From: Adineta ricciae
Lineage: Eukaryota > Rotifera > Eurotatoria > Adinetida > Adinetidae
Length of the DNA: 64,000 nucleotides
Assembly (NCBI GenBank): GCA_905250025.1
Contig: CAJNOJ010000103.1
Coordinates: forward strand, 186,001-250,000
Reading direction: 5' to 3'
The notes under the pieces are model-generated. The model was not told the DNA's origin. It searched no databases and was given only the letters and a program-made list of their open reading frames with translations. Shown in pieces: positions 1,198 through 62,529 of this stretch (positions are counted from its first letter, which is position 1; every line of letters begins with the position of its first letter). The translations under genes were made by a program, and so were the position numbers.

Positions 1198-3970
1198 TCA
1201 CAATCTTTCTTGTAAAACATCTTTTGAACCTTCCAATCCGACCGAATCTGGTTGAAAACTATTATTGTAATGGGTGTTTGCACGTGACCCACCTTGACCA
1301 TTATGAACAACATCCCCAGTCGACAGTAATACTTTCAAATGCGCATATGGTTCTCCATAATTACCTTCTTTCTTCGGTCCCCAATCAAACCGAGGCGAAT
1401 TATTTCGTGTAGCGGCTTCCAAGTATCTTGGTTTCTCTGAGTAATTGTTGTCTTCATGTCGATAATTCTTATATCTACGACCGATATTTTTTCCCTAAAA
1501 GAGATTTTAGCGACACATTGAAAAGAGAAATACCGGGATGAATTGGTACTCACAGAATCTCCACGTCTCAGTGCAGAATATTCTCGAAAATAGTTAACGA
1601 TGAACACTATTGGAATTGGTATTATACAAAGGATAAAAATACACCATCCAACAATAGTGCTCCATTCAGGAAAAACATACGCAGCAAAACCCGCACCAGC
1701 ATTATTCGACATACGTTTAGCATTGATTAAATTTGAGAATATTATAATCTGATGAAAGGAAACTTATTGTATTTAAACATGAAATAGTTTAGAATTTTAC
1801 TTACAAGCATTAAAACAGGAGCGATGATACACCATGTAACGAACAAATAATATTCAGCTGCACGCTTTCCTAACATCATCTTCACATCATTCATAAATCG
1901 ATTAAAACCGTAGATGTACGCAACTGTGATTACTTGGAAAAACCCCACCACAACTAACGATATGTTTGCTGCATATTCATTCAATAGATCAAACAGATAT
2001 ATTCCACCCTACACAACATAAATAACTTTCACTTTTTCATCATCGAACATCAAAACTATACGAACTGGACAAGTAAACGGCAAACTGACAAGAAAAGACA
2101 CTACACAAGTGATGATGACTATTACTGGACGTTTCACTGGAAGTCTGGGAAACAATTCCATCACAGCACTTATAGGAATGTTGGTCATAGCGAACTAAAA
2201 GTAGGACGAGAACATAATAAACGATAGATATCGTTGTTGTTGTTGTGTTCACAGACCTGAGTGCCGAGACCGAGTGCTAACAACATCAAAAAGAAAAGAA
2301 TGGAGAAAACGGGACTAGCCGGCATGTGTGTAATAGCTTCCGGATATGTGATGAATGCTAAACCTGGACCAGAAGAACTTGCGTATTTTTCCACTGACGC
2401 TCCGAGTTCAGATGCGAGATATCCAATCGTAGCAAATACAGCGAAGCCAGCGAAAATACCGGTGAAACAATCACATGACACAACAATACACATTTGCCTA
2501 AACAGAAATACAGTCAAAAGGTTTCTCGACGAAGAAAGCGGAGACTCACTGGAAGAAATTGTTTTTAAACTTGTTAGATGCTGAATATGCCATCAACGAA
2601 CCAAAACTAAGACCAAGAGAGAAGAAAACCTGTGAAGCGGCTGCTTGCCATGTCTAAATTTCAAGCCGAAATCGATCGCTTGAGTATTCAGTTGTGTTTC
2701 ATCGAAAGAAAACTTTTACCTCAAACTTGGCCACGAGTTCCCATCGCGGAATAACATAAAACTTAATGCCGTCGATGGCGCCATGTAATAAAGAACTTTG
2801 AATAATCAGTATTAACAACACAACATATGGAAAAATAGCCGTGAAATAGGCGACCTAAATCACCATCATTCACATCAATACAATCATTTCACTTTTAGAA
2901 TAGAAAAAGAAAAGCGCATACTTTTCCTGATGATTTCACACCACGAATAATACATGCACCAACTATTAACCAGGCAACGAATAACGAAAGAGCAGGGTAC
3001 AGTTGAGGTGTTCCAAACTCCTCAAAACTATTGCTCTTTCCCAAAAGTAATCGACTACATACATTAAACATCGTTCGATAACAGTAATCAAACACAATTC
3101 TCGAGACACTCACTAAAAGAATTGTTCTGTTGCTGTCACGCGATCTGTTGCATTGATCGACACACATGAATATTGAGATATGTTTTGATATTGAGGTTGA
3201 GTACAGTTATAAGTTGTTCCGTTGATGACGTGTAATGAACTTTCGCTACCAGGAACAAAGCATCGGTCATCATTCCACCAATAGCCACAGGTTTTCCATA
3301 AAAGATTCTTTCGAAATGATAGGACGAAATAGAATAATGCCCAACTAATAATAACATTGTAGTATAGCATACAGAATACGGTATTAATGACCATGGCGAA
3401 TCCGATACCTTGAATAGAGAAAGAAGAAGTTGAGAGAGATGTGTGAATGAGAGATGATCTGTTACCTTGCCATCCTTTTGCAAGAATGAATGCAGTAGCT
3501 GGACCTCGACTTGAGAATTGTCCGAGAGCCAGTTCGAGATAGTAGATGGGTGCACCGATGAGAAAATACAAGATGAAGTATGGTACGAGAAACGCACCTA
3601 ATTAAGAATGATAATGGAGATAGAAAGATGAAAGGAAGACGACAGACGTACCACCACCACTTTTCGCAGCTAGATATGGAAATCGCCAGACATTGCCGAG
3701 ACCAACGGAATTAGAAATGAGTGACAGGATGAACTCGAGTGGTCGATCCCATTCATGTGGATCATTCTCCTATATTATCAGTTCCAACAGAATTTTGTCT
3801 TGTAAATGGTAACTATTGAACAGTTTACCTTGTTTGGTGTCGCTGCATCTTCGGATTTCAATTTCGTTTGTTTTGCACTATCATTACCTCGACGAAACTA
3901 AAGTTTGAAAAACCTTCTTTAAGAAGCTAAAGTACAAACTGATTGTTACCTTCGACATTAGCCTATCCAT
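1198..3970 (-). CDS. SLC6-family Na+/Cl--dependent neurotransmitter or amino-acid transporter
   Basis: A plasma-membrane symporter with the 12-TM LeuT fold. The frame runs through more than ten exons with 50-80 bp introns. The TM1 signature [14 protein letters not shown] (about 3680-3740), which forms the Na+ and substrate sites, is intact and is followed by [10 protein letters not shown]. The TM3 to extracellular loop 2 exon contains the GYWWNDDRC region with NGT, NCT, NIS and NAT N-glycosylation sites. The TM6 block [20 protein letters not shown], the TM8 block and the late [15 protein letters not shown] block are all recognisable. The C-terminus has the conserved FDWGP motif (about 1370-1390) before a 60-residue tail ending at 1198. 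The start at 3970 opens a seven-codon exon (MDRLMSK); a possible acceptor lies upstream, so the 5' end is less sure. Substrate (glycine, GABA, proline or other) cannot be told from sequence alone. Confidence 0.88.
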
Positions 3971-4569
3971 CAGAAATGGTAAAATGGAATCGATTCTGAA
4001 ATGAGAAGCTATTAATTCTTTTTGGAATTAAAAATAGTAACTGTTTTGTGCTAAGCTACATCTCAAAGACAAAAGTGAGGGTCTCATCGATTGCAACAAT
4101 AAATCTTCAATGACCTATTAAAGAATGTATCTAGTTAGACATAACAAATATCAAGGTTGTCGACATTTTGTCTTCTCATGGATTAAAGACTTATATCTTC
4201 TGATTCGAATGCTTCTATTCGGAAAAGAGCAACTGGTTTAAAGAGGTCATTCGTGACTATCAGTTACAGAAATAAACTGAAACATCGTGAATCAGTATAC
4301 ACAATTACACATCGAATCTGCCAGTTTTGTTTTCTCTGCGCACTAATATTCTGATAACAATAAAATAAAATATATTTGTCGACCAGTGATAACTGGTAAA
4401 AACGAATTGCTATCATCATCATCATTTTCGTTGCTTTTTTTCCTTTCGCAAAAAAGATAAGATGATTCACAGATGAATCAAAAATTTCCAAGGACAAAAT
4501 AGTTGTGAAATCTCAACAAAGAATTTTCCCATTTGCAAAGAGCGCCAATGAGTATTTATTTTCCAATCG
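3971..4569. other. Divergent intergenic region
   Basis: About 600 bp between the divergent SLC6 gene (-) and the small membrane-protein gene (+). It probably carries both promoters. No coding or repeat structure is visible. Short ORFs here have random composition. Confidence 0.5.
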
Positions 4570-5067
4570 ATGTTAAACAAGAGAATGATCAATAATCAGC
4601 GTGAATCAGATGTTGTAAAACGTCGGTCTCGTCGTCAGACTTTACTATGTTATTCCACTCTGTGTTTATTTTCATTTCTCACATTTTTACTACTTTCAAT
4701 TCACACGTTTCATAATCATTCAATCAACTTTCAAAACAAAACCATTTCTTTAAATGTTATTAAGTTTCGCTCATCATTAATTCAATGTGGCCAATCGATT
4801 GTTCGACGACAATATCTCTACCAAAGAGTTCAACAATTCATTGCATTGGTAAAAGCCAATCCGGATACGTTGATCAATGACCAATTGAGTCAAAGTCTTT
4901 TAAAAGAAGATCTGATTTTGTGGTTAGAATATATTTTGAAAGAATGTTATCAGGCAAGACAATTTCTAATTTATGAGCAAGGAAATCCCATGCTAATCAG
5001 ACGCATCATCTCCAAAATACGAAAAGAAATCTTATACATTGCAGCATTTTTCCTCAAAGATGTTTAA
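4570..5067 (+). CDS. Hypothetical single-pass membrane protein, 165 aa
   Basis: An intronless ORF from ATG 4570, preceded in frame by a stop. The first 24 residues are strongly basic (KRRSRRQ), followed by one hydrophobic span at about 25-45 (LLCYSTLCLFSFLTFLLLSI), which suggests a type II signal anchor with the C-terminal 115 residues outside or lumenal. Two NxS/T sequons occur just after the membrane span (NHS and NKT). The remaining domain is predicted largely helical, with many Leu, Gln and Lys, and no family is recognised. Its stop lies 2 bp from the stop of DNAL1 on the other strand, so the two mRNAs must overlap at their 3' ends. Confidence 0.6.
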   Translation: MLNKRMINNQRESDVVKRRSRRQTLLCYSTLCLFSFLTFLLLSIHTFHNHSINFQNKTISLNVIKFRSSLIQCGQSIVRRQYLYQRVQQFIALVKANPDTLINDQLSQSLLKEDLILWLEYILKECYQARQFLIYEQGNPMLIRRIISKIRKEILYIAAFFLKDV

Positions 5068-5069
5068 AG

Positions 5070-6010
5070 TCAGTTGTCGAAATCTTGTTTTAAGAATAGT
5101 CCATCGAGTTTCTTTAACGATTTTAACAATTTATGTACTGTTTCTATCCATGCATCTTCATCCTTTTTCCATTCATCATGGATTGGATTTCCATAGAGAA
5201 CTAAATCTTCGAGTGTATCAACTGACGCCTAGAAATACAATGAAAATCAATGAAAACTTGGAGAGGTAAGTTTCAATTACTAAATGACGTATTTCTGACC
5301 AATCTTTGATCTGATTGTTGCTGATGTATAAGACCTAAAACAGAATCAATTGTACTCGATGATACGTAGAGAATTATTCACTCGAAGTTTTTTCATATTG
5401 AGAATTCCGTCAAACTTTTGGATGGAATTGTATGATATCCAAAGTTCTTCCAGAGTTTCATTCAAAACTTCCTGTTGAAGAGAATGTCTATTAGAAGAAT
5501 CTTCTTTTTTTATTGATGATTTCCTACTAGATGAAGAAGATTTGTGAGTAAATTTCGACCGAGAGATAAGATTTTTAAATGGCCTAAATATTCTCATACA
5601 AAACTCGCCACACAATGAAATTTTTCGATTTACGTAAACCATTCAAATGTGCAATTTTTTCGATCATATTTGTCGATAATGAAAGCTTTCTAAAGAAATC
5701 CAATGGAAAACAAAAAGACTCTCTGATGATGTGAAATATTGAACAAACTCGCAATGAAGTAACTTTTCAATAGAAGCATCCATGACGTTAATTGGAGGGT
5801 AATAACCATTCAACATGATTTCTTTGGCCTGATGAGCAGACTGACCGGTTTGTTTCTCCCATCGAGCAATTGCTTCGCTTGCCGAAATGGGATGAACCTC
5901 ATTGTTGGCTGATTCTCTGCGAAGTGCTGGTACAGATCGTGTTTGATTTCTTACTGCCTAAAATACATTCATATGAGGTTAAAGAATAACGAACATCAAA
6001 CTCTCACCAT
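5070..6010 (-). CDS. DNAL1: DNAL1, axonemal outer-arm dynein light chain 1 (LRR)
   Basis: A leucine-rich-repeat light chain that binds the outer-arm dynein gamma heavy chain motor domain in cilia. Splicing by phase gives MAVRNQTRSVPALRRE..., then EAIARWEKQTGQ (family-typical), KLSLSTNMIEKIAHLNGLR, HLKILSLGRNLLTNLLHL, ETLEELWISYNSIQKF, VLYISNNQIKDWSEIRHL and a final exon with TLEDLVLYGNPIHDEW...SLKKLDG. All blocks align to DNAL1 from memory. Introns are about 50-110 bp and GT-AG. The first exon encodes only the initiator Met (ATG 6008-6010, then GTGAGAG; the next exon starts GCAGTAAG at 5957). The stop TGA is at 5070-5072. Confidence 0.9.
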
Positions 6011-6219
6011 CAACAGACTGATAAAATGTATACGAAATGAAATAATTGTGAGACGTTCTTATCAGCTTAAGCCATAAAAACTGACATGACAAAAAAAAAC
6101 GTTACGATAGAAACGAGTTCATATCTAAATTTCTTTATTATTATGGAAGTGCGAGACGTTCCAATGAATGAAGAGGCGACAAAACAACAGCCTGCACATT
6201 AAAAAAAAAAGTTATAAAT

Positions 6220-6684
6220 TCAATTGTTGTGGTTCATGGCGTGAATAATCGTCCATCGTTTGACTGTTTCGGCGTACTTCTGTTTATCGGTTCGATAAAG
6301 TGTCAAAGCTTCTTTGTTCAATCCATGGTCTGGATTTGGATCGTTTAATAACGAAGCTATGGATATCAGAAGACCACTCACAGTCAGTGCCGGTGACCAT
6401 CGAGAATCAAGAATATCTAAACATATTTTCCCTCCGACGCTGATATTTGGATGGAAGATCGGCGTCAGAAATTTCACTATTGGTGGTTGAAATGGATAAT
6501 CTGACGGGAATTTCATTGATAACATGAATCGTCCATTACTAAATGGAGTGTCTTGCGCACCTTCAACCCAACCAATCCAGTTTGTCAGGTCGTCCGTTGA
6601 ATCTACTGGTTGCGCATGGCAGAGCGGTGCTGGACTCTTTTGAAGTTCACGGTGATGATGAGCTAGACGCTTCAACAGAGCCAT
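6220..6684 (-). CDS. Ubiquitin-conjugating enzyme E2, UBE2D-like, 154 aa
   Basis: A single-exon UBC-fold enzyme that carries ubiquitin as a thioester and passes it to substrates with E3 ligases. Visible landmarks are the N-terminal helix MALLKRLAHHHRELQKSPAP, the YPFQPP loop, the HPN motif in IFHPNISVGGKICLDIL with the catalytic Cys seven residues after the Asn, and SRWSPALTVSGLLISIASLL followed by DPNPD. Length and spacing match UBE2D/UBC4-5. The start at 6684 was chosen because the family begins MALKR; an in-frame ATG six codons upstream (6702) gives an extension with no family counterpart. The N-terminal helix has three successive His residues, which is unusual. The order of the D, E and related subfamilies is uncertain. 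Confidence 0.9.
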   Translation of the reverse strand: MALLKRLAHHHRELQKSPAPLCHAQPVDSTDDLTNWIGWVEGAQDTPFSNGRFMLSMKFPSDYPFQPPIVKFLTPIFHPNISVGGKICLDILDSRWSPALTVSGLLISIASLLNDPNPDHGLNKEALTLYRTDKQKYAETVKRWTIIHAMNHNN

Positions 6685-10084: not shown

Positions 10085-10146
10085 ACTATTGTCATTTGCT
10101 CGATACTTAGGTGCACTTGATTTTCATTTCAGATTTTCCTTCTCCA

Positions 10147-13100
10147 ATGCCTTCACGTGCAAAAAAGATTCTTTCGCCCATACCTGTCGTTCCAAATACT
10201 GAACAAAGTGTGACAGATATGATTAGACAGGTGAGATGAGTTTTTTTTATAGTAACACGTTCAGAGATATTCTATTCCAGAGTCAATCGGTATTTTCTTC
10301 ATCGGATCAAGACGCGATTCGATCATTATGTGAACAATTAGTTAATTTGTTGATTGTTTCGTCTTCATCGGATCCGCCTAATACATCGTTGAGAAAATGC
10401 GTTGTGAAGTGAGAGATTTGTGGGATGAAAAGTTCTTTACTTTTAGTTTGTTTTTCTAGAGGCTTTTCTCATTTACGAGAGGAACAGTATGAAAACGTAC
10501 TTGATGAGTGTACGAAACATTTACGTGAATTCTTCAATCGCCAAGGCAAAGAACATCGTCTTGAATATATTTCGATGTTGAATTATTTAATCGAGAATTT
10601 TCCATTTGGTAACAACATTTCTGTAATTTCGAAAAAAACCTATTCCAATGCTTTTAGGTTTGGCTTGTATTTTGAGAATGAAAAGTACAAGTAAGTTCCG
10701 TTCGTTACGCACATTGAGTGATTGATCAGTCCTCTTTAGTTTCCAATCAGTTGATTATCATTGGCGAAGAACTCTGGTCGGACATTCAGTCAGTGATTCT
10801 TTTTCTTCTTCAGTTGAAGTTCGGTGTTTTGTAGATCGACCAACGTTCCTCATCAACGATTCAATCTGTTTCAACAACTTCAATACTATTTAAAAGTAGT
10901 CGTTTTTCTTCTTCCAAAATTTCAACAAGAACTGGAACGAGATGGAATCATTTCTCGGATTATTCATGAAATGCTAAACGATGGTTAACCTTTCAATCGA
11001 TCGGACTGAATGAAAATGAGATGTTTTTTTTTATTTAGAGAATACAGTGACATTAGAAATTCGTTTGACTTGCTCACTGGTTTGGCATCTTTTGAAAGAC
11101 AACGATCAACTATCACCACATGAAAAAGTCAAAATTAATTTCTTTTACAAATGGATAGTTTGTATCTTAGTCTTTTTAGTTGAATCGCATGACAGAAGTC
11201 ACTGAAGTAACTTTGTCTCGACTAGCGTTGTACTTTGGTTTGATCAAAACAACAATGACAAACGAGCTGCGCGATACGAGCTTCTTTCTTCAATTGTTGG
11301 AAGATATTCTTGCTTTCAAAACGTTTGATTTGTTTCATCTCTTCTGCTTTCGCTAAAATCGAACTTTGAATATAATAGACGTGAGGCAACAATCATGGTT
11401 GGAATATCCAAAGCATTGGAAACATATTCAGAAGCATTGACGTAACAACAACTGATCTTTTATAAAGAGTTTTGTATTTTTATTTTTATAGTTCAACATG
11501 GACTGGTCTCGATGCAGCGTCATTGAAAGATATTGCAAAACAATTGTTAACTTTTGCTTGGGATCATTTTAGCTACAATGTTGAAGTAATTGACATTGAA
11601 ATAAAGGATGTTTAACAATGATCTTTCTTTGTGTTTTAGACGGTTCGACATTGTTCAGCAAATATCTATTCGAATACGTTCAAGATAACTATGAATCATA
11701 GTAAAGTCATTCATTAAGAGAATGATTATTTGATTGGATCATTTAGGTGAACTTCGTCAAACAATAATCGATTCCCAACTAACACTATTAAAACAGCTTC
11801 CGTGGCAAAAAGATGGTTGTTCATTAGCTTATCATACATTACTCGAATACTTGTCGGTTAGTGATATCCTTCAATGGAATCCCAAATTACCCGATTCATG
11901 TTTAATGGCAATGAACGATCGAGGATTAGCATCAGAGGTCAATTTTCATGTTATCCGAGAAGGAAACGAACTTTTGTTTTTCTTAGGCGAGTTATCTGTA
12001 TTGTGTCCTTTGTCATAAACATTATGAAGAAGAAAAAGTCAAAGATAAATGGAAACAAATTTGGCTAAAACCGGTAGTTCAAGCATTGGATACATCATCG
12101 CCATTGCATCGATTTCTCATTGCTGAAGTACGATATTGATCGGATGTTCTATTGAATATATTCGACTTTCTCTCTAGTATATTCTACCGAAAATTTTCAA
12201 AGCTCATCCGGATTGCTTACAGGATTTCAAAGAAATTACAAGTAAGACAAAGAGTAATCTGTACATGAAGAAAGATTATTGTTTTCTGTTATTTTAGTGA
12301 ATCCTCGAACAGTAATTGTTTGTACTCGTATTGGTCGAACTCTGGGTTTATGTCCGAACATCTTTTCATTAACATCGCAATCTGCAAATGAACACGAACT
12401 GATTCGTCAAGGAATTACAAGTGAAGACGAACAAGTATAACTTTTAAATGATATTAATCTATCGATCATTGATTGTTGTGCTCTAGATTTGTCTTGATTG
12501 TCTGTTTATTCTTTGTGAAAACCCGAAAACAACCGAATCCATCAACGAAATCGAATTTCAATTGATCAAATACTTTCTTCAAATGAACATCGACAACGGC
12601 ACAACTTCATTCAGAAATCAATCGATTTCATTGCTTAAGAAAGTAAGTCAACCGATTTTCTTCTCAAACGTCTTCCACTAATCCATTCGTGTACAGCACT
12701 TCATTCGTATAAAAGACAGTTGGTTGTTATGCGCAAGGCAAAAACTGAAAAGCAACGCTCAAGATTTCGATAATCTCACAAAACGATATCGAGTATGGTG
12801 ATTGTTGAAGGGTAAACCATTTCAATTGTATTCTTCTTTCAGACTCACTTGAAATGGTTGATAAATTGGTGTTGTTCTAATTTATATTTGGAAGGATCCT
12901 ATGCTCAACGTCATTTAGCTATTTTAACTTTACATTGGCTAATTCATTTACATGGATCTGATGGAATTCAAACAGTTTGTCGTGAGTTACAAACAGGTTT
13001 ATTTTCTGATAAGAAAATATGATGATATTTTTGGCAAATAGAAAAACTAAAACTCTACGATTTTCAAGAACTACTTGATGAAAATTCCATGGAATTTTTG

Positions 13101-16100
13101 TTTAATTGCTTATGGGACACGTATGAAGACATTCGGCAATATTGTTTGGAGATTTTAATTAAGTTGAACGTAAGTTTTCATTTCTCTGATAGATAATCCA
13201 TTTCGCTAAGGATTCAATGGTTTCTTTGGCATAAATTTGCTTCAATAATCGATCGGGAATTGAATTATAAATAGCTGCACTCGTTTGTAAATAAAGTGTT
13301 AGAAGAATAGTTTCATCCGAATCGTAGGGATTGAGATATTTACATTCTTGCTTATGAATTTGTTTTCTCTCTAATGCATATTGAATGCCTTGTTCGATAT
13401 TATTATTATCATTAGTAATCACGTCGATCAGGTCGAAGAATGTTTTCGTGAGTAAATCGTTCGAATTCGATTGAACTTGAACTGATCGAAGAATCTCATC
13501 CTTTGAAAGACCGTTGAATGCATTAACAAGCAGATCGATGTACGCGATGAAGATAGTCGAAGGTGTTTTCGTGCCAAACATTCGCTTGATACAATCTTGA
13601 ATAATTTCTGCACGTTTCGTCGACGGATGTTTGGAATAGAAATATGCAATAGGTGATAAACGAAGTAATGATGATGGAGTAGCAATGAGCTTCGAAGTTT
13701 TCCGTTCCATGTCAACTGCGATACCAAGAGCATGAGCAGCTTGTGTTTCACCAAATAAATCAATTGACTTTTTCAAATGAACACGCGGAGTAAAACAATG
13801 ACCGGCCGGACACATGTAACTAGAAGATTTTCTATACGTAAAAACAAAAAATAAGCAGATTAGAATAGTTTACCTATTCATCCACCATTGAAAATATCTT
13901 TCTAAAAGATGATCTTGCGAATATCCTCCATGATGTGCGAGACTTGCGAGAAAGCATAACGTTAATGATACGTCATCCGACCAAACTAAAGCTATGTCAT
14001 CGTGTTCGCTAAATTCCTTTTCCATTTGGATATGTTCCAAGATATAAGGATCTATCAGATGAGTTAATAAACCATCAGCTAATGTCATCGCGTAAATTGA
14101 TGTGACTATTCGATTGTATTCTTCGTTATTTTCGATAGTTGGTGGATCGATCGGTGACATTTTATGAGGACGAACACCTAGTTCAATTATCCAATCTTTT
14201 TCGGAATAATCCAACGATTCATTCGTCATTTTTCGACTTTCAGAACTTCGTAGACTTAGAATTGAATAAAATAAATTTCAATGGCTCCGAACGAAAGAAA
14301 AACACGATGATTGTGTGTGTGTGAAAAAATATATCTCGAAGCGATAAAGCAAATATACGTTGTTTTTCTTTGTTCTTTTCCTTCTCGTAGGTTGCCACGT
14401 GTAGAAACATTGACCTTCGCGTTGAAATCTTGTTCGATCGTGTTCTACAGTTATTATCCAGTACACAACCGCCTGAAACAGCAAGCGGCTCGACGCTCGT
14501 ACAATGTATTGCACAAGTAAACCTGAAAAAGCTGCCAGAACTAGTAGGTCATGATCGAAATAAACAAGAAGATCAAGTTTATCTCCTGATAAATCACATC
14601 ACGAAAAGATTAGACAATGAAGTGAAACAAGCGAAAATCAATTTGTATCAAGCAGCAAAAAACGGACCCATGTACGGATGTTTAAGTGGAATCAATGCAT
14701 TGTTAACGATTGTGCAATCTGATAAGTAAGGAACGAAATTTTCATCATGCAAAGAGGAAAATACGAACGAAAAAATCCGTTTAGATACGAGAGTCAAGAA
14801 GATATTGGTCCATGGCGTTCACTGTTTGCTCATTTGATCGATCTATGCTTAGAAATTGCATCGATCACTGGCCCAATTGTTAGTTCATCATCACCGGAAG
14901 GAATGATGCCTATGGAACTAACTGATAGTACGTTCGTCGAATGTTTTATTGTGATTCTAATATACCGTTTGATCTGTTTTTAGTCAGTGATAAAGTTGAA
15001 GGTGAAAATCTTAACGGTCAAGTTACTTCGCAGATGTTATTAGTATGTTGTTGGAGAACAATCAAAGAGATATCGCTATTGTTCAGCCGATTGGGACTAC
15101 TTGGAATAAAATTCATTCAAAATAAAGATCAATACAAATTTATTAGTTTAAATCAGGTACTGATCTCTGCTCCTCATTGAACTCTCTATCTTTATATTAT
15201 AAGAAAGTAAAAATTGTTTTCTGCAATTTTTGATATTATCAGTATAAATGACGTACAATTGATGTGGGGTGTTTTTTCATAGGTTCACACTATATGTAAT
15301 TATTTCATGGAACAATTACTAAAGTCACGGCATTGTGGTGCATATGAACTAGCGTATACAGGCTTTGTGATCATGTGCGAACAACTATGGAGGTAAAAAT
15401 CGAATGTTTGTTGCTGAGAGATGAATATTCATTCGGAGTATTCGTTTTCTAGTTCGAATTGCAGTGAACTATGTAATTTACCGATCGAATGGATTGAGAA
15501 TGGAATCAAAATGGTTGAAGAAAATACTCTCGATCGAAATAAATTGTGTTTAACGCGACGGTCAGGTGGTTTACCGTTTTATCTTCAATCGATATTAACT
15601 GATGAACCGATTAAACAACGAGGACAACAACGAACGTATGTCGCAAAATTAATGGAAACTCTACTAAATATCATTCAAAACGACCCGGATACAATCGACG
15701 TCGATGGAGAAAAGTTAGAAAACAGTCGAAAGGTCTGACTGGTGTAGGAATAGTTTTGAGAAACGTTGTCGTTTTGTATAGATTCATGCGTACAATACCG
15801 CACGTTCATTTTACCGTAATCAACGATTTGCTAATGATGTTTTACCGTACATCGAACGTGGTCTTCTCTTGTCGATTACTGGTTTTACATCATCGATCTG
15901 GATGATACGAAATAGTGCTACACTACTTCTGTCAACTATCGTTCAACGTATATTCGGTCCATCGAAAACTAAAGATGGTGAAGATAACTTATCGAAAAAG
16001 AATAGTATGACTTCAAGAGAATTTTTCAATAAGTATCCATCATTATTTCATCTGTTCTATCAACAATTGCAACAAACAACGAGGTATACACTGTATTTCA

Positions 16101-18352
16101 GTATCAATTTTAACGCCCTTCTTTTTCAGTACTCGTTCATCGATTGAATCATTGTCATCTTCAAGTTTATTTGCAATTTTATTAATTCTTCGTCGACTCT
16201 ATCCGAGTCCATTAGATGGTATTGATTGTTCATTAACACTCGATAAACTTTTACCATTTGTGATCAAGTAAATATTCCTTTCTCGATTTCATTCTCAATA
16301 CATTTTCCGACAAATAACTAGGTGTGAAGAATCTCCACTACTGCGTATACGTGAACATTCATCGAAAGCACTCTTAGCTTTGATCAATCATGATCAATAT
16401 TCCAGTATTATCCATGAACGNTATCCGAGTCCATTAGATGGTATTGATTGTTCATTAACACTCGATAAACTTTTACCATTTGTGATCAAGTAAATATTCC
16501 TTTCTCGATTTCATTCTCAATACATTTTCCGACAAATAACTAGGTGTGAAGAATCTCCACTACTGCGTATACGTGAACATTCATCGAAAGCACTCTTAGC
16601 TTTGATCAATCATGATCAATATTCCAGTATTATCCATGAACGACTGAAACAATTAATGAAAGGAAAAGTTCGACAAAATACACTCCACGGTCGTTTACTT
16701 CAAGTCTGTTCTTCGATAAAAAAGGAATTCTTGTCCATAAATCTCTACTCATTAGGTCAATGCCATCTTTCAATCGATGAAAAAACATCATCTTCAGTTC
16801 AAGTTCGAACCGAATTTCAGTGTACAAGAAATGCTTTCTTCATTACAATGGTGCATCTATGAGTTCGTATGAATCTGCTCTTATTTATAAAACTTTCGAT
16901 TCGATTTTTAGAAACAATTGTTCGTTAACACAATATTGTTATCTGGAATTCCTCTACAATATTCATTGTCAAATTCCTTCAACTCAACTGACGAACAGTA
17001 TTAATGAATATGTGAATTTCATATTGAAAACTGGTGATAAAGTGACCATTGGCGGTGATGATTTGACTCAGATCGTAACCCGTTTGATAGTTCGCTTGGA
17101 AAATGTTCCAGTTCAACTAAAACTTTTTCTTTTTGTCGAACAAACTCAGACAGAACTATGTTTTATTGAAACACTTCTAACAGAAAATGATTTATCTCGT
17201 TTCGAGAATAATCTTCGACAATGGCTCGTCGATCTATTGTTAACAATGGATTTATTTAACGAGCAACTCTATACCAAAGCATGTGAATTACTTTTGAAAA
17301 TGATTGATAAAGCAAACAACTACGAACGATTAACAAGACGAATTGTTGAATTGATTGAAAATCTACGACGGTAAAGAGAAAGCATTGTTTTGCACGATCA
17401 AACACTCACTTCAATCTTTTGTTTTAGTCCGATGAGTTTAGCAGCTAGTTTTAATCTAATTGGTGAATTATTACCCTTATCGTCACCAACGAACAACAAA
17501 GAAGATCTAATTCAACTTGTTTACAATCGAATGAACGATTTTATTGATGGCGAGAGTAATGACGAATGCGCTTGTGCTATTCTCAATCTCCTGAGTAAAG
17601 CACGATCGTGTTTATACGATGCATCGAACGGTATTGAACGTTGATATCTTGTTGGTTTAGATTTGCTTTTGTTGTTTGTTTTAGTGGAAAGTAAATGTCG
17701 ATATTGGAGATTGATATTGAAACTTTCCTCATTTCCCTCGGATCTCGTTCGAGAGAGATTAACTAAACTAATGCCCACGATATTGAACGATCAACGTCTT
17801 TCTGGTGTGTTTGGTGCTAACTGCTATTTAGCACAAAATGTTCTCTTTGAACATTTTACAAAAGATGCGTTATCCGATGTTTCAAGTGATTTATTTGTTA
17901 ACCTTATTGTTGAATTATTTACTGATTTACTAAATGATATCCATTCCAGTGATGATGATAACGGTGGTGAGGAAGAATTGAGTTTAGATCGTCGTTTATG
18001 GCCAGCATCCGAAGGTTATAATAATGTATTCGTATCCGAAAATGAGACCTGTGATCATTATTGTGCACGTTACGGTGAACATTTACTTGATTCATTAGGA
18101 CAAATTTTAGGCAAATCTGAAGAAGAAAACCTGAAGAAAACTATTGCTGTGATTCGCGATGATTCTAATCGATTGATTGATATACAATCAGAAGCATTCA
18201 ATCGATTTTTAGTTCGACAACGATCGACTGTGAGATTGAATTTAATGATGAAATTTCTCCGTGTGACCAACACATTCCAAGAAGTTCATCTCGAAAAATT
18301 ACCGCAACAGTGGATTTGTGATAATCAAGACAAAAGAAATTCATTGATTTAG
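10147..18352 (+). CDS. THADA: THADA/Trm732 homologue (tRNA 2'-O-methylation partner, ARM/HEAT repeats)
   Basis: A large alpha-helical-repeat protein; yeast Trm732 pairs with the Trm7/FTSJ1 methyltransferase to modify tRNA position 32. Many exons are separated by introns of about 50-70 bp. Family blocks recalled from THADA are clear: NGPMYGCLSGINALL, PIVSSSSPEGMMPME, TSQMLLVCCWRTIKEISLL, SRHCGAYELAYTGFV, LTRRSGGLPFYLQSIL and, in the DUF2428 core, FTSSIWMIRNSATLLLSTIV-QRIFG with NSMTSREFFNKYPSLFHLF. The N-terminal third (MPSRAKKILSPIPVVPN..., from 10147) is diverged, so the start is less sure. The protein is roughly 1,600 residues. One intron (13170-14390) is about 1.2 kb, flanked in phase by ...EILIKLN and VATCRNIDLRVEIL, and contains an antisense gene. 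Two assembly joins (N at 16421 and 18444) duplicate 221 bp each; collapsing the first restores a continuous frame. The stop is at 18350-18352. Confidence 0.88.
13159..14229 (-). CDS. ADP-ribosylglycohydrolase (DraG/ARH)-like protein nested antisense in a THADA intron
   Basis: A predicted relative of enzymes that remove ADP-ribose from proteins. Two exons (14229-13874 and 13831-13159, 42-bp GT-AG intron, in phase) give 342 aa. Family blocks are visible: AMTLADGLLTHLI where GxxxGDxxG is usual; VWSDDVSLTLCFLASL where W(T/S)DDT is usual; GGYSQDHLLERYFQWWMNR, then CPAGHCFT; and a C-terminal DSDETILLTLYLQTSAAIYN then SIPDRLLKQI where the family has DTDT...GAYYG...IPERW. The two acidic pairs survive, but the Thr of the first motif is Val and the glycines of the N- and C-terminal motifs are mostly gone, so activity is doubtful. 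The last codons and stop (13159-13169) overlap the THADA exon on the other strand. Exon-level open frame of 1029 nt argues against decay. Origin (animal or bacterial) is undetermined. Confidence 0.75.
16200..16420 (+). repeat. 221-bp assembly overlap A, left copy
   Basis: Identical by eye to 16422-16642 and separated from it by one N (16421). It contains a THADA exon end, a short intron and the next exon start. This is best explained as an unmerged contig overlap. Confidence 0.93.
16422..16642 (+). repeat. 221-bp assembly overlap A, right copy
   Basis: Second copy of 16200-16420. The THADA frame continues from this copy (IIHERLKQLMKGKVRQN), so removing one copy plus the N gives a normal gene. 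Confidence 0.93.
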
Positions 18353-49309: not shown

Positions 49310-51272
49310 TTAATGTGCCACGGTGTACATTCGACTACGTGTTCGATTATATTCACGTAATTGTTCAATTGGGCCTAAAAAAATCTTGTTTTCTCATGTT
49401 AATATTAATGATAGACTGAACTAACCAACGGCAGCAATAGCTGGACAATGATTATAAACATATTGTTTCATGACCGCCATGACTGTGTTTGCATTTACAG
49501 CCTAGATTTAAAATTGAATTGATTTTGTCATTATTGTTGAAGAGACACTTACATCAATACGCGCGTCGAGTTCGTGAAGGGGAATACGTCGGCCGTAAGA
49601 TAGTAGTTGACTGAAAAAGATCCAAGTAAATATATCATTGATTATTAGCTCAGTTTTGAGAAAAACGAACCGTCCGATATCTTCGCAAATTGGTGTTGAT
49701 CCATCAAGCATTAGTAACATATTGGTTTTCAAAAGATTCTTGGCTCTTGTCACTTCAATATCTGTACATGCTGTTGCAATGCGACACCTAAAATCGTAAC
49801 TTATTAAATAAATTCGAATTACATCTAGAAGAAAATACCATTCATCTTGTATGGCGCTCATAGCGTCATCAATTTTCATTCGGTCAGTTACTAAGTACGT
49901 CCCCCATAGACCAGTATCAGTATAGCATGTATTAAAGGCTTGATATGAGTGACATAGATTGTATTTGACTGCTTGTTGACCGAGACGTGTTGCAACATGA
50001 CCACCACCAGCCATCGATCTAAAGAAACAAGTGTAATATAAATATTTTTGGAGTGTCTATTTATACCTGTCCCAATTGCCAATAATTGTCGATGCAACCA
50101 TTAATGGAATTGTGTCAGCATCAGCCCAGCCCGTACTTTCCACGGCAATACCAATATGAGCTAATGGCATATCATCGTCTCGAATACGAATCTCACTTCC
50201 AGTGAAACTAGAAGAAATGAAAGATGACTGATATTCTGTCATCATAAAAGATATCTTGACAAATGTACCGGCACGGTGTAAGATCAAGTGGCTCTCCTGA
50301 TTGATTGGCATTCAATTTGACAAAATGTTCTTCACTCAAACGAACTAATTGATCATGATTTACACCACCAGCAGCAGCCAAGACAATACGTGGTGCTCGG
50401 TAATGTGTTTTAACATATTTCAGTAAATCAGCCTTTTTGATTGATCTTGAATTATTTAAAAACGAAAGAATATTAAAAGAAAGACTTTTACTACAGTTAA
50501 TCTACTTTATATTTTCTGATGGGCCAAGAATAGTTCGACCCAAAGGTGTACCTTGAAAAGCAGTTGCATGCAAATGATCAAAAGTAACTTCTTGAAGGTT
50601 ATTTTCGATTTCTTGCATTTCGCGCAAGATTGTATGACGTTCAAGTTCGATTTCTTCTTCACCAAATCGACTATTTTGCACAATATCAGAAAGCAATTCC
50701 ACAACTATCATGAAATACACCGTTCTAAGAATGAATCACATCAAACTCCGAACTTACTCTGTGGTAAATCTTTACTAAAACATTTGGCATAGTATACTGT
50801 CTGTTCTCTTGACGTGTACGCGTTAAGATGAGCGCCAAGATTTTCTACTTCAAGTTCAAGTTCACGTTGTGTTCGTTTATTTGTTCCCTAAGTACGGAAT
50901 TCGTATTTCTTGTAACAAAATCGACTTCGATAGTACTTTGAAAGCCATATGTTCAAGAAAATGAGCTGTACCGTTATTTTCTGCTGTTTCAAACCGACTT
51001 CCAGCATCGATCCATACACCAACGGTGCATGTAGGCAATCCGTAATCTTCCGATGCTATACGTAAACCGCTTTTAATTGCAGTTACACGCGTTTCGGGCA
51101 CATTGAGAAGAGTTTGTTGCTGTGTTACTGATGGATTTGTTTTTATTGCGGTTGTCAGACATCGAAACTAAGAGAAATTATGTTGTATTTTACTAAAACA
51201 CAGTGCAAAATAATTTACTGAAGATCGTGTTGTTAATCTACCAGCTCTTTGAGCTAAACCTCGAAGGAACAT
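49310..51272 (-). CDS. PMPCB: PMPCB, mitochondrial processing peptidase beta subunit
   Basis: The catalytic subunit of the matrix zinc protease (M16 family) that removes mitochondrial presequences. The first exon ([18 protein letters not shown]) and the start of the next ([11 protein letters not shown]) form a basic, Ser/Thr-rich targeting peptide. The processed part begins [18 protein letters not shown], and the inverted zinc motif HFLEHM (HxxEH) is intact near 50945-50965. [19 protein letters not shown] supplies the downstream metal-ligand Glu. Later blocks [36 protein letters not shown] and [20 protein letters not shown] match the family. The C-terminus is [20 protein letters not shown] then YTVAH. 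About nine exons with introns of about 50-70 bp. No broken motif. Confidence 0.93.
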
Positions 51273-58869: not shown

Positions 58870-61800
58870 TCATGCGAACCACATTGTATTTTCAATCATT
58901 GAATTGAAATCAATTTTTAATGTTTGAACATCATCAAGTGTGACGACAAGATTTTCATCGACAAGTTCTTCTTCCATATCCGAACTAAAATTCGAATTCT
59001 CTCATTTTTCTTTTGCGTAAATTTCTCTACTACGGCTTACGTTGCTGTACTTCGTTGTTCATTTGCCATTTGTCCTTCATAGTCAAGATTAACTCCACGA
59101 GACACACAGATTGATGCATAATGCACAGGCGCTGGAATTGATACAGCTTTCGTGCATCGAACATCAGTATGACAAAGATAATATCTGAATGAATGTCTAT
59201 AGAAAAAGAAATCTTTCAATCGAAATCTTCAACTTACGTTAATTGTTGAATTTCGTCCGATGTAAAACCGATATCATCATATAAGACATGATAGAGTGCT
59301 GGTTTTGATGTACCTTGAATCGCTGCATGAGAATTGAGATAAAAATCAAATCCATTAGGCGAGACAATATCTGTATCAATAACTGTACCTAGAAAATAAA
59401 CATGACATGAGATGTTCTGGAAAAGTGTCAATTCGAAAAAGAATGAATTGTTATACCAGGTTGAACATTACTCGTTTGGTTGGATTGTTTGTCATAGATA
59501 AAGAAACGAGTATTGTGAGTTTTCTTTACTACGGTAAAGCAAATTTTTGGTAATTGATTATGACCGTAGAATTCTACGTAGACAATCAATGACATTTTTC
59601 TATTGATTAAGATACGAAATAATTACCTCTGCATGCTTGTTTAATAGCTTGTACTTCATTGTCCAAGACTTTCTGGAATGCTCCATCGTCTACTCCAGCT
59701 CGATAAAAGACGAGTTTATTTGGTAAACGTGAATTATGCTCCGAGAATTTTCGTATTAAATCCCCAACGTAAATATGAAGATCTTTTATAATTTCAACTG
59801 ATATTTTTCCTTTTGGTGAATATTGTTGAATAACACGACCACTATATTGTGTACCTACAATGATAGAATTCCGTTTAACAAGGGAGAATCTATTATCACA
59901 ATAGTCAACTTGTTGAATCTTTAGAACCAATAATCGCTGCAATTGATGGTCGTTCGTGTGAGCACATTACATGAGTACAATCAATGCCGAAAAACATGAA
60001 AACATCTGAACGAGTTGATGGAGATGTCAATGCCCGCATGAGTGAAACGAATTGGTTAATACCACCTAATTTTGCATTGAATTTTTGTGCTAAATTCTGT
60101 TCAAAATATCAGAAAGGAAATCAAAATCCTAAGTCTTATTCTGATAAAGTCCACTTCTGTACCTGAATGTACATATCCATCTTACGCGATTCACTATTTG
60201 CTTGTAGTTTATCAAACCGCGTACATTGTGTTACCATTCCTACGAAAAATAAAACAAATCTTAAAAATGATCAACATACTTTTCTCTTACCAAGTTTAAT
60301 ATTTCCAAAGAATTTAATTGCATGATAAATATCATCACCAACTTGATTCAGAATATAAATGATCACTTCACAACCAAGTGTTTTCAATTCATTCATTCGT
60401 GCCAGGATAGTATCTGGACTTGCTGCATCAGATTTTTCAATAGCAGATGAATTGAGTCGAATTCCATACTTTGACATAGCCTTACCAACAGAAAGAAGAA
60501 TAACATGTCGAATAATTTTAATTTGAAAAGTTTCATCAAAACCTGTGGGAGTTTAGTTGCAAAATCTTTTGCTAAACCCACTTGCCGTTCGTCGGGTGCT
60601 CTCTGACTGACAAGAACCAATGCCCACGAACGTATTTCACGCGTTTTATTGAAATAATTATTTAAATACCATTTACCAATACTGACTCTTTCGATCACAT
60701 CTCGACTATCATCATGTGGTGATTTATATTTGATTTCAGGCGGAGTTAAAAGTCGACCGGTAATTGTTAACATATCATTCGTTTGAATTTTCATACCAAA
60801 ACTGTGTAAATACGCATCTTTATCATATTGACGTTCATCTACAATACGTCGAATCAATCCATATCGTTCGCCTGGCTTGACAACAGTTTTCCTCGTCACA
60901 GTTGCACGTTGTTCTACTGTAAGAGGTTTTAAACTTCTCTGCCAGTCATCAACAATAACCAATTCCATCGGTAAAAAATGTGATTTATTCTTATCAACTG
61001 GATTGAAAAGTTCCACAACAGGTAGATGAGGATATCGCAAGCGAATTTTCCATTTCTCATAGAAATAATCAGCAACACTTATCTTTGAACCTTGATCCTT
61101 GATAAATGTATGTTGATTTGCTGGAGAACCAAATGATTTTAGACGATATTTACGAATTTGATGAGTATGAGTTGTGACAAACCATATCGATTTAAGAATT
61201 TTCCGTACTAACAATGGTTGATCTTTTGATGATATACCTGAAAGAACAAAAAACAAAACAAAACTTTCTTTTACAAATAATTCATCGTTGAAAAAACGCA
61301 CCAGATCGTCGAATATCGGTACCAAGATAACATGTAATAAATTCTACTAAATTATAATTTTGATAAAAACAACAGAATGTATTATTGACATTTAATGTTG
61401 GACCACGTTCACCTAACACAATTGCTTGATAAAATCCCGATGCTAAACCACGCCCATCACCTAAACAACAAGTCAGGAGATGTGAACTTTTCTATTCTCA
61501 TAGAAAAACTATACCAAGATCATCCAATTTTTGATGTTTTGGATATGATCGATTTTTAATATTCACCATATCGATCCGTTGTGTTTGTTTTAATAAGATT
61601 TCTAAGATTCTCACCGAATCGTGTGGTCGTAGTGGAATTCTTCGTTGAATAAAATCAAAAATGATCTTTAAATCATATGTCTTCACCAAATTAATTAATA
61701 GAAATCGAAAGCGATTAGTTCGATCAGTTTTCTTATGTTTTATCTGGCATTCGTATTCTTTATTAAAGTTCACAGTTAAATTTTCTTTCGCGTATAAACT

Positions 61801-62529
61801 CCTTCCTTGATCATACCATACCAATGGAAATTTTTCCCGTTCGATAATTGTTTTTATAACTTGGAAACGTTCGTCTCGTTTACATGAACGCCATGAACCA
61901 TCGCGCATAAGAATTTCTACATCGACATCGAATTGATAAACAATTGACGATTGAGAATCTTTCTCAAATTCGATTTTAAAATGATTGGTGTAAAGTTCAA
62001 CTCGTTGACCAACTGCAATTGTTATTATCAATCAAAAGTGAAAGGAAACTGGAAAGCAATGAATTTACCTCGTCCAGATTGAGCAGGTCGTCGTGCGAGG
62101 GAAATCAATTGTGATTCTGGAACAGCTGAACGAATTATTGGACGAACAAATGATCGTGAACGTGCTTTTGAACTACTTTCTGCTTCCTTTGTAGTCTTCG
62201 GAACGGTGGAAGTCGAACTAGATTCAACGGTTCGACTTAACTGACTGCTCGATGGTTTTTCTTCGACATCTGCTGATGAATACGATCGACGTTGAGAATG
62301 CGATGATGATCTTTCATGACTACGACCTGATCGATCTAATGTAAATTACAAACGATCAATATTACAAGAGATTTTCAAGACAAAAAACGAAAGAAAAATT
62401 ACATACGGCGTTTCGATGATCGACGATCGTCATCTGTGTATAACAAAAAACATACAACATTTCAGGAGAGAAAAATACAGAGTTTCTCATCATACCATCC
62501 GGATAACCCCGATCTCGATGCGATGACAT
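58870..62529 (-). CDS. Argonaute protein with altered slicer site
   Basis: A small-RNA-guided AGO-clade protein of roughly 950 residues in about 15 exons. The start at 62529 ([11 protein letters not shown]) leads to an Arg/Ser-rich disordered N-terminus, then the N domain ([16 protein letters not shown]), a PAZ domain ([37 protein letters not shown]), MID, and a PIWI domain: [72 protein letters not shown] and [20 protein letters not shown]. The last exon, found by phase, ends [11 protein letters not shown], the usual AGO C-terminus (stop 58870-58872). Compared with the family DEDH tetrad, the first Asp and the Glu are kept, the Asp of YRDG is Ala, and the His after PAPxYYA is Ser. It is probably unable to cut RNA. 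The AGO rather than PIWI clade is supported by the DFYLxSHxxIQGTS block. Confidence 0.9.

Follow-up and report, generated by a model that had tools for sequence, protein, structure and literature searches.

We found that a long intron of THADA in the window, a 64,000-nt stretch of the Adineta ricciae genome, holds a two-exon antisense gene encoding a protein of the DraG/ADP-ribosylglycohydrolase (ARH) family. The reading that we favor, with a little better than even confidence, is that of an independently expressed nested gene whose product has the DraG fold, is probably of bacterial type, and is a pseudoenzyme acting by binding. The features concerned are listed here by window position.

10129-18334, + strand: THADA gene, a 32-exon chain with both model ends inexact, recognized by Pfam domains and PDB 8y2o
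13170-14390, + strand: THADA intron holding the nested gene, 1,221 bp, GT-AG, with human THADA aligning across it
13874-14229, − strand: nested gene exon 1, 356 nt, ATG at 14229, carrying WSDDV, recognized by Pfam PF03747 and codon score
13832-13873, − strand: nested gene intron, 42 nt, GT-AG
13159-13831, − strand: nested gene exon 2, stop codon TAA at 13161-13159, recognized by codon score and gene finder
13159-13169: overlap of the nested gene with the THADA exon, 11 bp, comprising the last codons of the nested gene and its stop
14230-14390, − strand: gap from the nested ATG to the THADA acceptor, 161 bp, a putative promoter and 5' UTR by position

The host gene was identified as THADA/TRM732 by its Trm732 TPR and DUF2428 domains and its similarity to THADA. 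Over residues 1-1,148, the model matched PF10350 (DUF2428, 203 bits), PF25150 (Trm732 TPR, 125 bits), and PF25151 (C-terminal TPR, 57 bits), and the product matched the human THADA structure PDB 8y2o with an E-value of 2e-63. The first-pass annotation had described a 1.2-kb THADA intron, and this was confirmed, with the donor GTAAGT at 13170 and an in-frame restart at 14391. The intron is placed after model residue 704, between the TPR match (residues 439-694) and DUF2428 (residues 829-1088). The remaining 30 introns measured 45-76 bp in a chain that permitted only ~38-85 bp there and penalized the long intron 2.5 units more mildly than the others; these lengths are thus no independent check on the ~50-70 bp given at first pass. 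The 3-nt exon at 15204-15206 is a probable artifact masking a 126-bp intron. The alignment with human THADA is continuous at the junction, the nearest gap being one residue located approximately nine residues beyond, and therefore no THADA sequence is missing at the long intron. THADA exons within 13170-14390 were also considered and rejected, because the chain with mini-exons scored 388.6 versus 426.5 for the long-intron chain and human THADA crosses the junction directly. Searches of the 130-Mb assembly with exon protein, with PF10350, and with DNA revealed no second THADA copy, whether ohnologue or allele; two PF25150 matches, on C31 and C730, were both under the cut-off of that family. In a separate part of THADA (16185-16628), two head-to-tail 222-nt copies are 97% alike, so that a stretch of exon occurs twice in the model, and an N is present at 16421 within them. 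This repeat is either a recent exon duplication or an assembly error.

The proposal of an antisense gene of 342 codons in two exons, with an 11-bp overlap onto the THADA exon, was borne out in every part. An acceptor 12 nt further on, giving a 54-nt intron, would yield a product of 338 aa instead of 342 aa. The gene (13159-14229) lies within THADA, yet it is not purely intronic, and the codons preceding the 11 bp located in the exon cross the THADA donor in antisense. When the 1,221-bp intron was simulated 2,000 times under a first-order Markov model, the median length of the longest open frame was 83 codons, with a 99th percentile of 151 and a maximum of 244; 224 codons, approximately the length of exon 2 alone, were reached in 1 of the 2,000. 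The frame of the gene itself received a codon score of +44 bits, whereas the five remaining frames scored between −26 and −89; the score was trained on the genome's other ARH genes, some of which were counted repeatedly through overlapping loci. The gene was also found unaided by a simple ab initio finder, as the 338-aa variant with the 54-nt intron; the same finder was weak on THADA, producing only a 413-aa fragment model. The gene is single copy in the 130-Mb assembly, with no allele, ohnologue, or orthologue found there, and a search for a flanking target-site duplication within 13000-14600 gave only short or weak repeats. Judged by its anatomy and the chance controls, this looks like a genuine protein-coding gene.

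Under the favored reading, the nested gene would be transcribed from a promoter located in the 161-bp gap upstream of its start codon and would be excised with the intron from the THADA pre-mRNA, and its nesting would most likely be a neutral accident of insertion. Nested genes make up ~6%, 2.1%, and 0.5% of the genes in fly, worm, and human, respectively, and are frequently antisense in introns (PMC3786989). The 2mit gene in Drosophila timeless2 has a similar layout, being a two-exon protein-coding gene antisense in an intron of a larger gene, but its protein is unrelated, and a coding overlap is not mentioned in the accessible part of that report (PMC3786989). The overlap in A. ricciae is relevant to a different explanation, which is that the antisense gene has been retained for regulating THADA by transcriptional interference or donor masking, a role compatible with a working protein. 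The coding end of the nested gene does reach 11 bp into the exon and span the donor, and interference by nested genes has been reported (PMC3192792). However, antisense genes within introns are frequent in animals (PMC3786989), and the open frame is better explained by protein-level constraint, so that we regard retention for THADA regulation as improbable.

Three other predicted genes of the window, all on the − strand, read from their translations as an SLC6-type transporter (1198-6684), a mitochondrial processing peptidase (49421-51272), and an Argonaute/Piwi protein (58870-62529). By these predictions, the surroundings of the nested gene read like a core animal region more than a foreign-gene island.

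The similarity of the product to DraG/ARH proteins, which had been proposed by inspection, was supported by profile search. Residues 76-324 matched PF03747 with 49.1 bits and an E-value of 8.4e-13, above the family cut-off of 26.2 bits, and the product also matched PHROG 6572 (ADP-ribosylglycohydrolase; E-value 3.9e-7). Under the favored reading, the DraG fold would be retained. In sequence searches of the PDB, the matches were 2cwc (E-value 4e-4), an unrelated protein (0.04), and 6dre (0.55), which we take to be Tri1 (its database title is ADP-ribosyl-(dinitrogen reductase) hydrolase); no ARH1 or ARH3 chain was matched at E-values up to 1. The match to 2cwc, an ADP-ribosylglycohydrolase of Thermus thermophilus, was best over nested residues 82-189 and included the WxDD and CF blocks, but the nested protein lacks the last Thr of TDDT, the Asn-Gly, and the His, and its C-terminal motif is non-canonical. 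Tri1, an ADP-ribosylarginine hydrolase, is matched through both 6dre and the NCBIfam equivalog model NF041672; with the latter, the score of 20.1 bits (E-value 2e-4) was far under the cut-off of 490 bits, and several catalytic residues are replaced. The G-x-C-F block that follows the DD helix is retained in the nested protein as G129, C131, and F132. This block is missing in L142 and L143, the two ARH genes of the other type that could be read as one frame; the models of L144, L146, and L147 do not contain the stretch and hence are uninformative on it. On the basis of the G-x-C-F block and its PDB matches, the nested protein probably belongs to the bacterial (Thermus 2cwc/Tri1-like) type.

Profile scores of the nested gene were 77.7 bits with the bacterial profile (79 proteins), 65.2 bits with the own-genome profile (30 proteins), and 54.8 bits with the viral-contig profile (35 proteins). 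Two profiles of other ARH genes of this genome, each built from two sequences, gave 8.7 and −1.1 bits. The bacterial profile also scored the other divergent genes of this genome at 69.7 (L142), 53.5 (L143), 89.5 (L144), 73.8 (L146), and 107.9 bits (L147), and since genes of the other type thus score 53.5-107.9 bits with it, the profile evidence for a bacterial type is unspecific. This control, together with the results of approximately unbiased (AU) tests given below, makes the assignment to the bacterial type less firm.

We examined the active-site residues in alignments with 109 canonical proteins (30 from the same genome and 79 bacterial). Seventy-five columns were at least 95% conserved among these proteins, and the nested gene keeps 23 of them. 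D52, D85, D86, W115, G129, C131, F132, R176, L177, and P179 are retained, and E72 and D291 count as retained by alignment. The TDDT motif reads S84-D85-D86-V87; Ser is also found at the first position in ARH1 (PMC6309922), and the last Thr is replaced by Val. The Asn-Gly is replaced by P171-S172, and the His that is invariant in all 109 canonical rows corresponds to F204. The replacements of His, Asn-Gly, and the last Thr were seen in every alignment made. The change of Thr to Val in WSDDV was correctly noted at first pass, and the loss of the active site exceeds it, extending to His (to Phe) and Asn-Gly (to Pro-Ser). The accompanying statement that two acidic pairs are kept is secure for the N-terminal pair, D85 and D86, but not for the C-terminal one, as the DSDET stretch aligns in three registers. 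The C-terminal D, D, and T/S positions correspond to D291, T293, and I294 in two MAFFT modes and alignment A2, to S290, E292, and T293 in alignment A1, and to D289, D291, and E292 in a register set by hand; the metal motif is non-canonical in all three. The column of the catalytic Glu contains a gap in alignment A1 and E72 in both MAFFT modes, and E72 stands 20 residues after D52, compared with a canonical spacing of 7. The nested protein thus has neither the metal motif of an active DraG/ARH hydrolase, E..[S/T]DDT..DxD[S/T], nor its conserved pocket His and Asn-Gly.

The corresponding motifs are E..SDDT..DSDS in ARH1 and E..[T/S]DDT..DTDT in ARH3, a single mutation of a Mg ligand abolished activity, and the His contacting the pyrophosphate is absolutely conserved in ARH1 and ARH3 (PMC6309922). 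We infer that this is the His replaced by F204. In view of the mutation data and the replaced His, the nested protein is unlikely to act as a hydrolase, and simple binding of ADP-ribose is doubtful as well. The binuclear Mg and ADP-ribose site would have been lost in large part and the activity with it, leaving a role by binding rather than hydrolysis. Of the first-pass suggestions on changed activity, that of a pseudoenzyme is now the likeliest, with a degraded active site, but that of an ADP-ribose binder is weakened because His and Asn-Gly are gone.

Alternatively, the product may still be hydrolytically active with a modified metal site, in which the metal is bound by D85, D86, D289, D291, and E292, with E72 or another acidic residue serving as the catalytic Glu. 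The acidic clusters SDD and DSDE are still present, one register matches DSDE to the DSDS of ARH1 (PMC6309922), and both MAFFT modes pair E72 with the Glu column. However, the two computed registers disrupt the C-terminal motif, the spacing from D52 to E72 is 20 residues and not 7, and the replacements of His, Asn-Gly, and the last Thr appear whichever alignment is used. We judge an altered hydrolase to be unlikely, although it is the most plausible of the alternatives.

It is slightly less plausible that the gene is a young pseudogene, i.e., a transferred or duplicated gene decaying without selection in which stop codons have yet to arise. The retention of only 23 of the 75 near-invariant columns would fit such decay, as would the single copy, with no allele or orthologue showing constraint. 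By contrast, the 342 open codons, intact splice sites, and positive codon score argue against it, and with about three quarters of the residues changed, neutral drift should have left many stop codons or frameshifts. That the frame stayed open while ~3/4 of the residues changed suggests selection on the protein during most of its divergence. Beyond the favored pseudoenzyme, a more elaborate scheme can be drawn in which a bacterial-type ARH, taken up independently of the large bacterial-type ARH clade of this animal or split from it very early, has become a non-catalytic regulator that binds ADP-ribosylated targets or active paralogues via a remade pocket, with its expression tied to THADA by the donor overlap. 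If the donor-overlap reading were true, expression of the nested gene would be coupled to that of a tRNA-methylation cofactor, THADA. We consider this scheme very improbable.

A pseudoenzyme of this family has been described in the vertebrate heart, namely ADPRHL1, in which key residues are lost (PMC4990356). ADPRHL1 is an ADPRH-like vertebrate protein (46% identity), and its mammalian form has lost three of four Asp residues (PMC4990356), whereas the nested gene has lost mainly His, Asn-Gly, and Thr. If expressed, the nested gene would be a further ARH pseudoenzyme besides ADPRHL1, from another branch of the family. It is a well-delimited case of an enzyme-family gene located inside an animal core gene, with its frame kept and much of its catalytic site lost, and the many canonical bacterial-type ARH copies of the same genome provide a built-in comparison. 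ADP-ribosylation is of interest in bdelloids because of the response of Adineta vaga to desiccation and radiation: it is one of several processes enriched among genes over-expressed after these treatments, and 17 PARP genes are up after radiation (PMC10809525). In the literature collection searched, no paper mentioned a bdelloid together with ADP-ribosylglycohydrolase, and those matching Adineta and THADA concerned other subjects. The combination of a probable ARH pseudoenzyme with antisense nesting in an intron is unusual, and each part is already known.

The origin of the nested gene was investigated by searches and trees. The closest sequences had 17-40% identity, the highest values being over short stretches, and the top identity within the same genome was 40% over 72 residues. 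No close bacterial donor was present among the best 80 of at least 538 stretches confirmed by tblastn (594 tried), which had 21-32% identity; the search patterns for bacterial contigs came from canonical paralogues, so that divergent kin were under-sampled. In viral contigs, 40 of 83 stretches were confirmed with alignment A1 and none of 6 with the nested protein alone. No close relative was found among matches in plasmids (6 records) and phages (2), in nine genomes behind ten loci (27-35% identity), or in one phylum, where 7 of 290 genomes had matches (27-37% identity).

Forty-two of 80 bacterial loci went into the working profile, the other 38 lacking one or other of two motifs in a single frame, together with 10 genes of the A. 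ricciae genome. Seventy-nine bacterial rows passed this profile, 40 of which entered the first tree; alignment A2 contained 45 of 78 bacterial references. Removal of identical rows reduced the set from 169 to 158, and L013 and L021 (the nested gene's own locus) and L018 (a partial duplicate) were excluded. The tree used for the AU tests contained 20 of the 79 bacterial rows and 15 own-clade rows, with L010, L011, L144, and L164 left out. In the trees, the terminal branch of the nested gene reached 10 changes per column. The tests did not reject its placement with the own-genome clade (p = 0.44) or with the bacterial rows (p = 0.16), the latter at a cost of 7.75 log units. Placement with L142, L143, L146, and L147 was likewise not rejected (p = 0.51) and improved on the free tree by 0.22 log units. 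The protein search established the PF03747 family, and the trees did not place the gene. The idea of a captured gene is partly supported in that the G-x-C-F block and the PDB matches point to a bacterial type, but no donor was found and no tested grouping was rejected. A separate transfer, an extreme paralogue, and kinship with the other ARH genes are all possible origins.

The other ARH genes of the genome were compared with the nested gene. At least 58 exon-level matches to PF03747 were found in the whole genome (e.g., L001, L003, L008, L151, and L168). Thirty-two of 39 own-genome rows, one gene being entered twice, formed one clade (SH-aLRT 99) adjoining bacterial rows, as if a single early acquisition had later expanded. 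Members such as L001, L008, and L020 share the same blocks with the nested protein at 20-27% identity (alignment A1), but differ from it in that the aligned members keep the GDALG..EF, WTDDT, GNG, TH, and GDDTDT-like motifs. A subclade of 22 rows has a frame break just before WTDDT, as by a common putative intron, whereas the intron of the nested gene is located elsewhere.

Among the divergent genes, the numbers of the 75 conserved columns kept in the first alignment mode were 31 (L142), 31 (L143), 39 (L147), 40 (L144), 33 (L146), and 64 (L150), where the models of L144, L146, and L147 are incomplete in their central region. His was present in all six, and Asn-Gly and the last Thr of TDDT each in five; the sixth model does not contain the Asn-Gly stretch. 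The best structure match of L142 was Listeria Lmo0067, with ARH3 further down. Its sister L143 (1855-2949, + strand) has GDAT in place of TDDT and Asn in place of the second C-terminal Asp, and may be another pseudoenzyme, judging from these residues. Since L143 also lost Mg ligands, the divergent genes are not a uniform control. At L011 (4259-5469, − strand), consecutive open segments of an ARH gene are separated by stop codons, which looks like a broken ARH copy. L150 (1021-2373, + strand) is a bacterial-type ARH that scored 381 bits with the bacterial profile versus 309 bits with the own-genome profile and lay outside the own-genome clade in the tree; it may represent a second acquisition.
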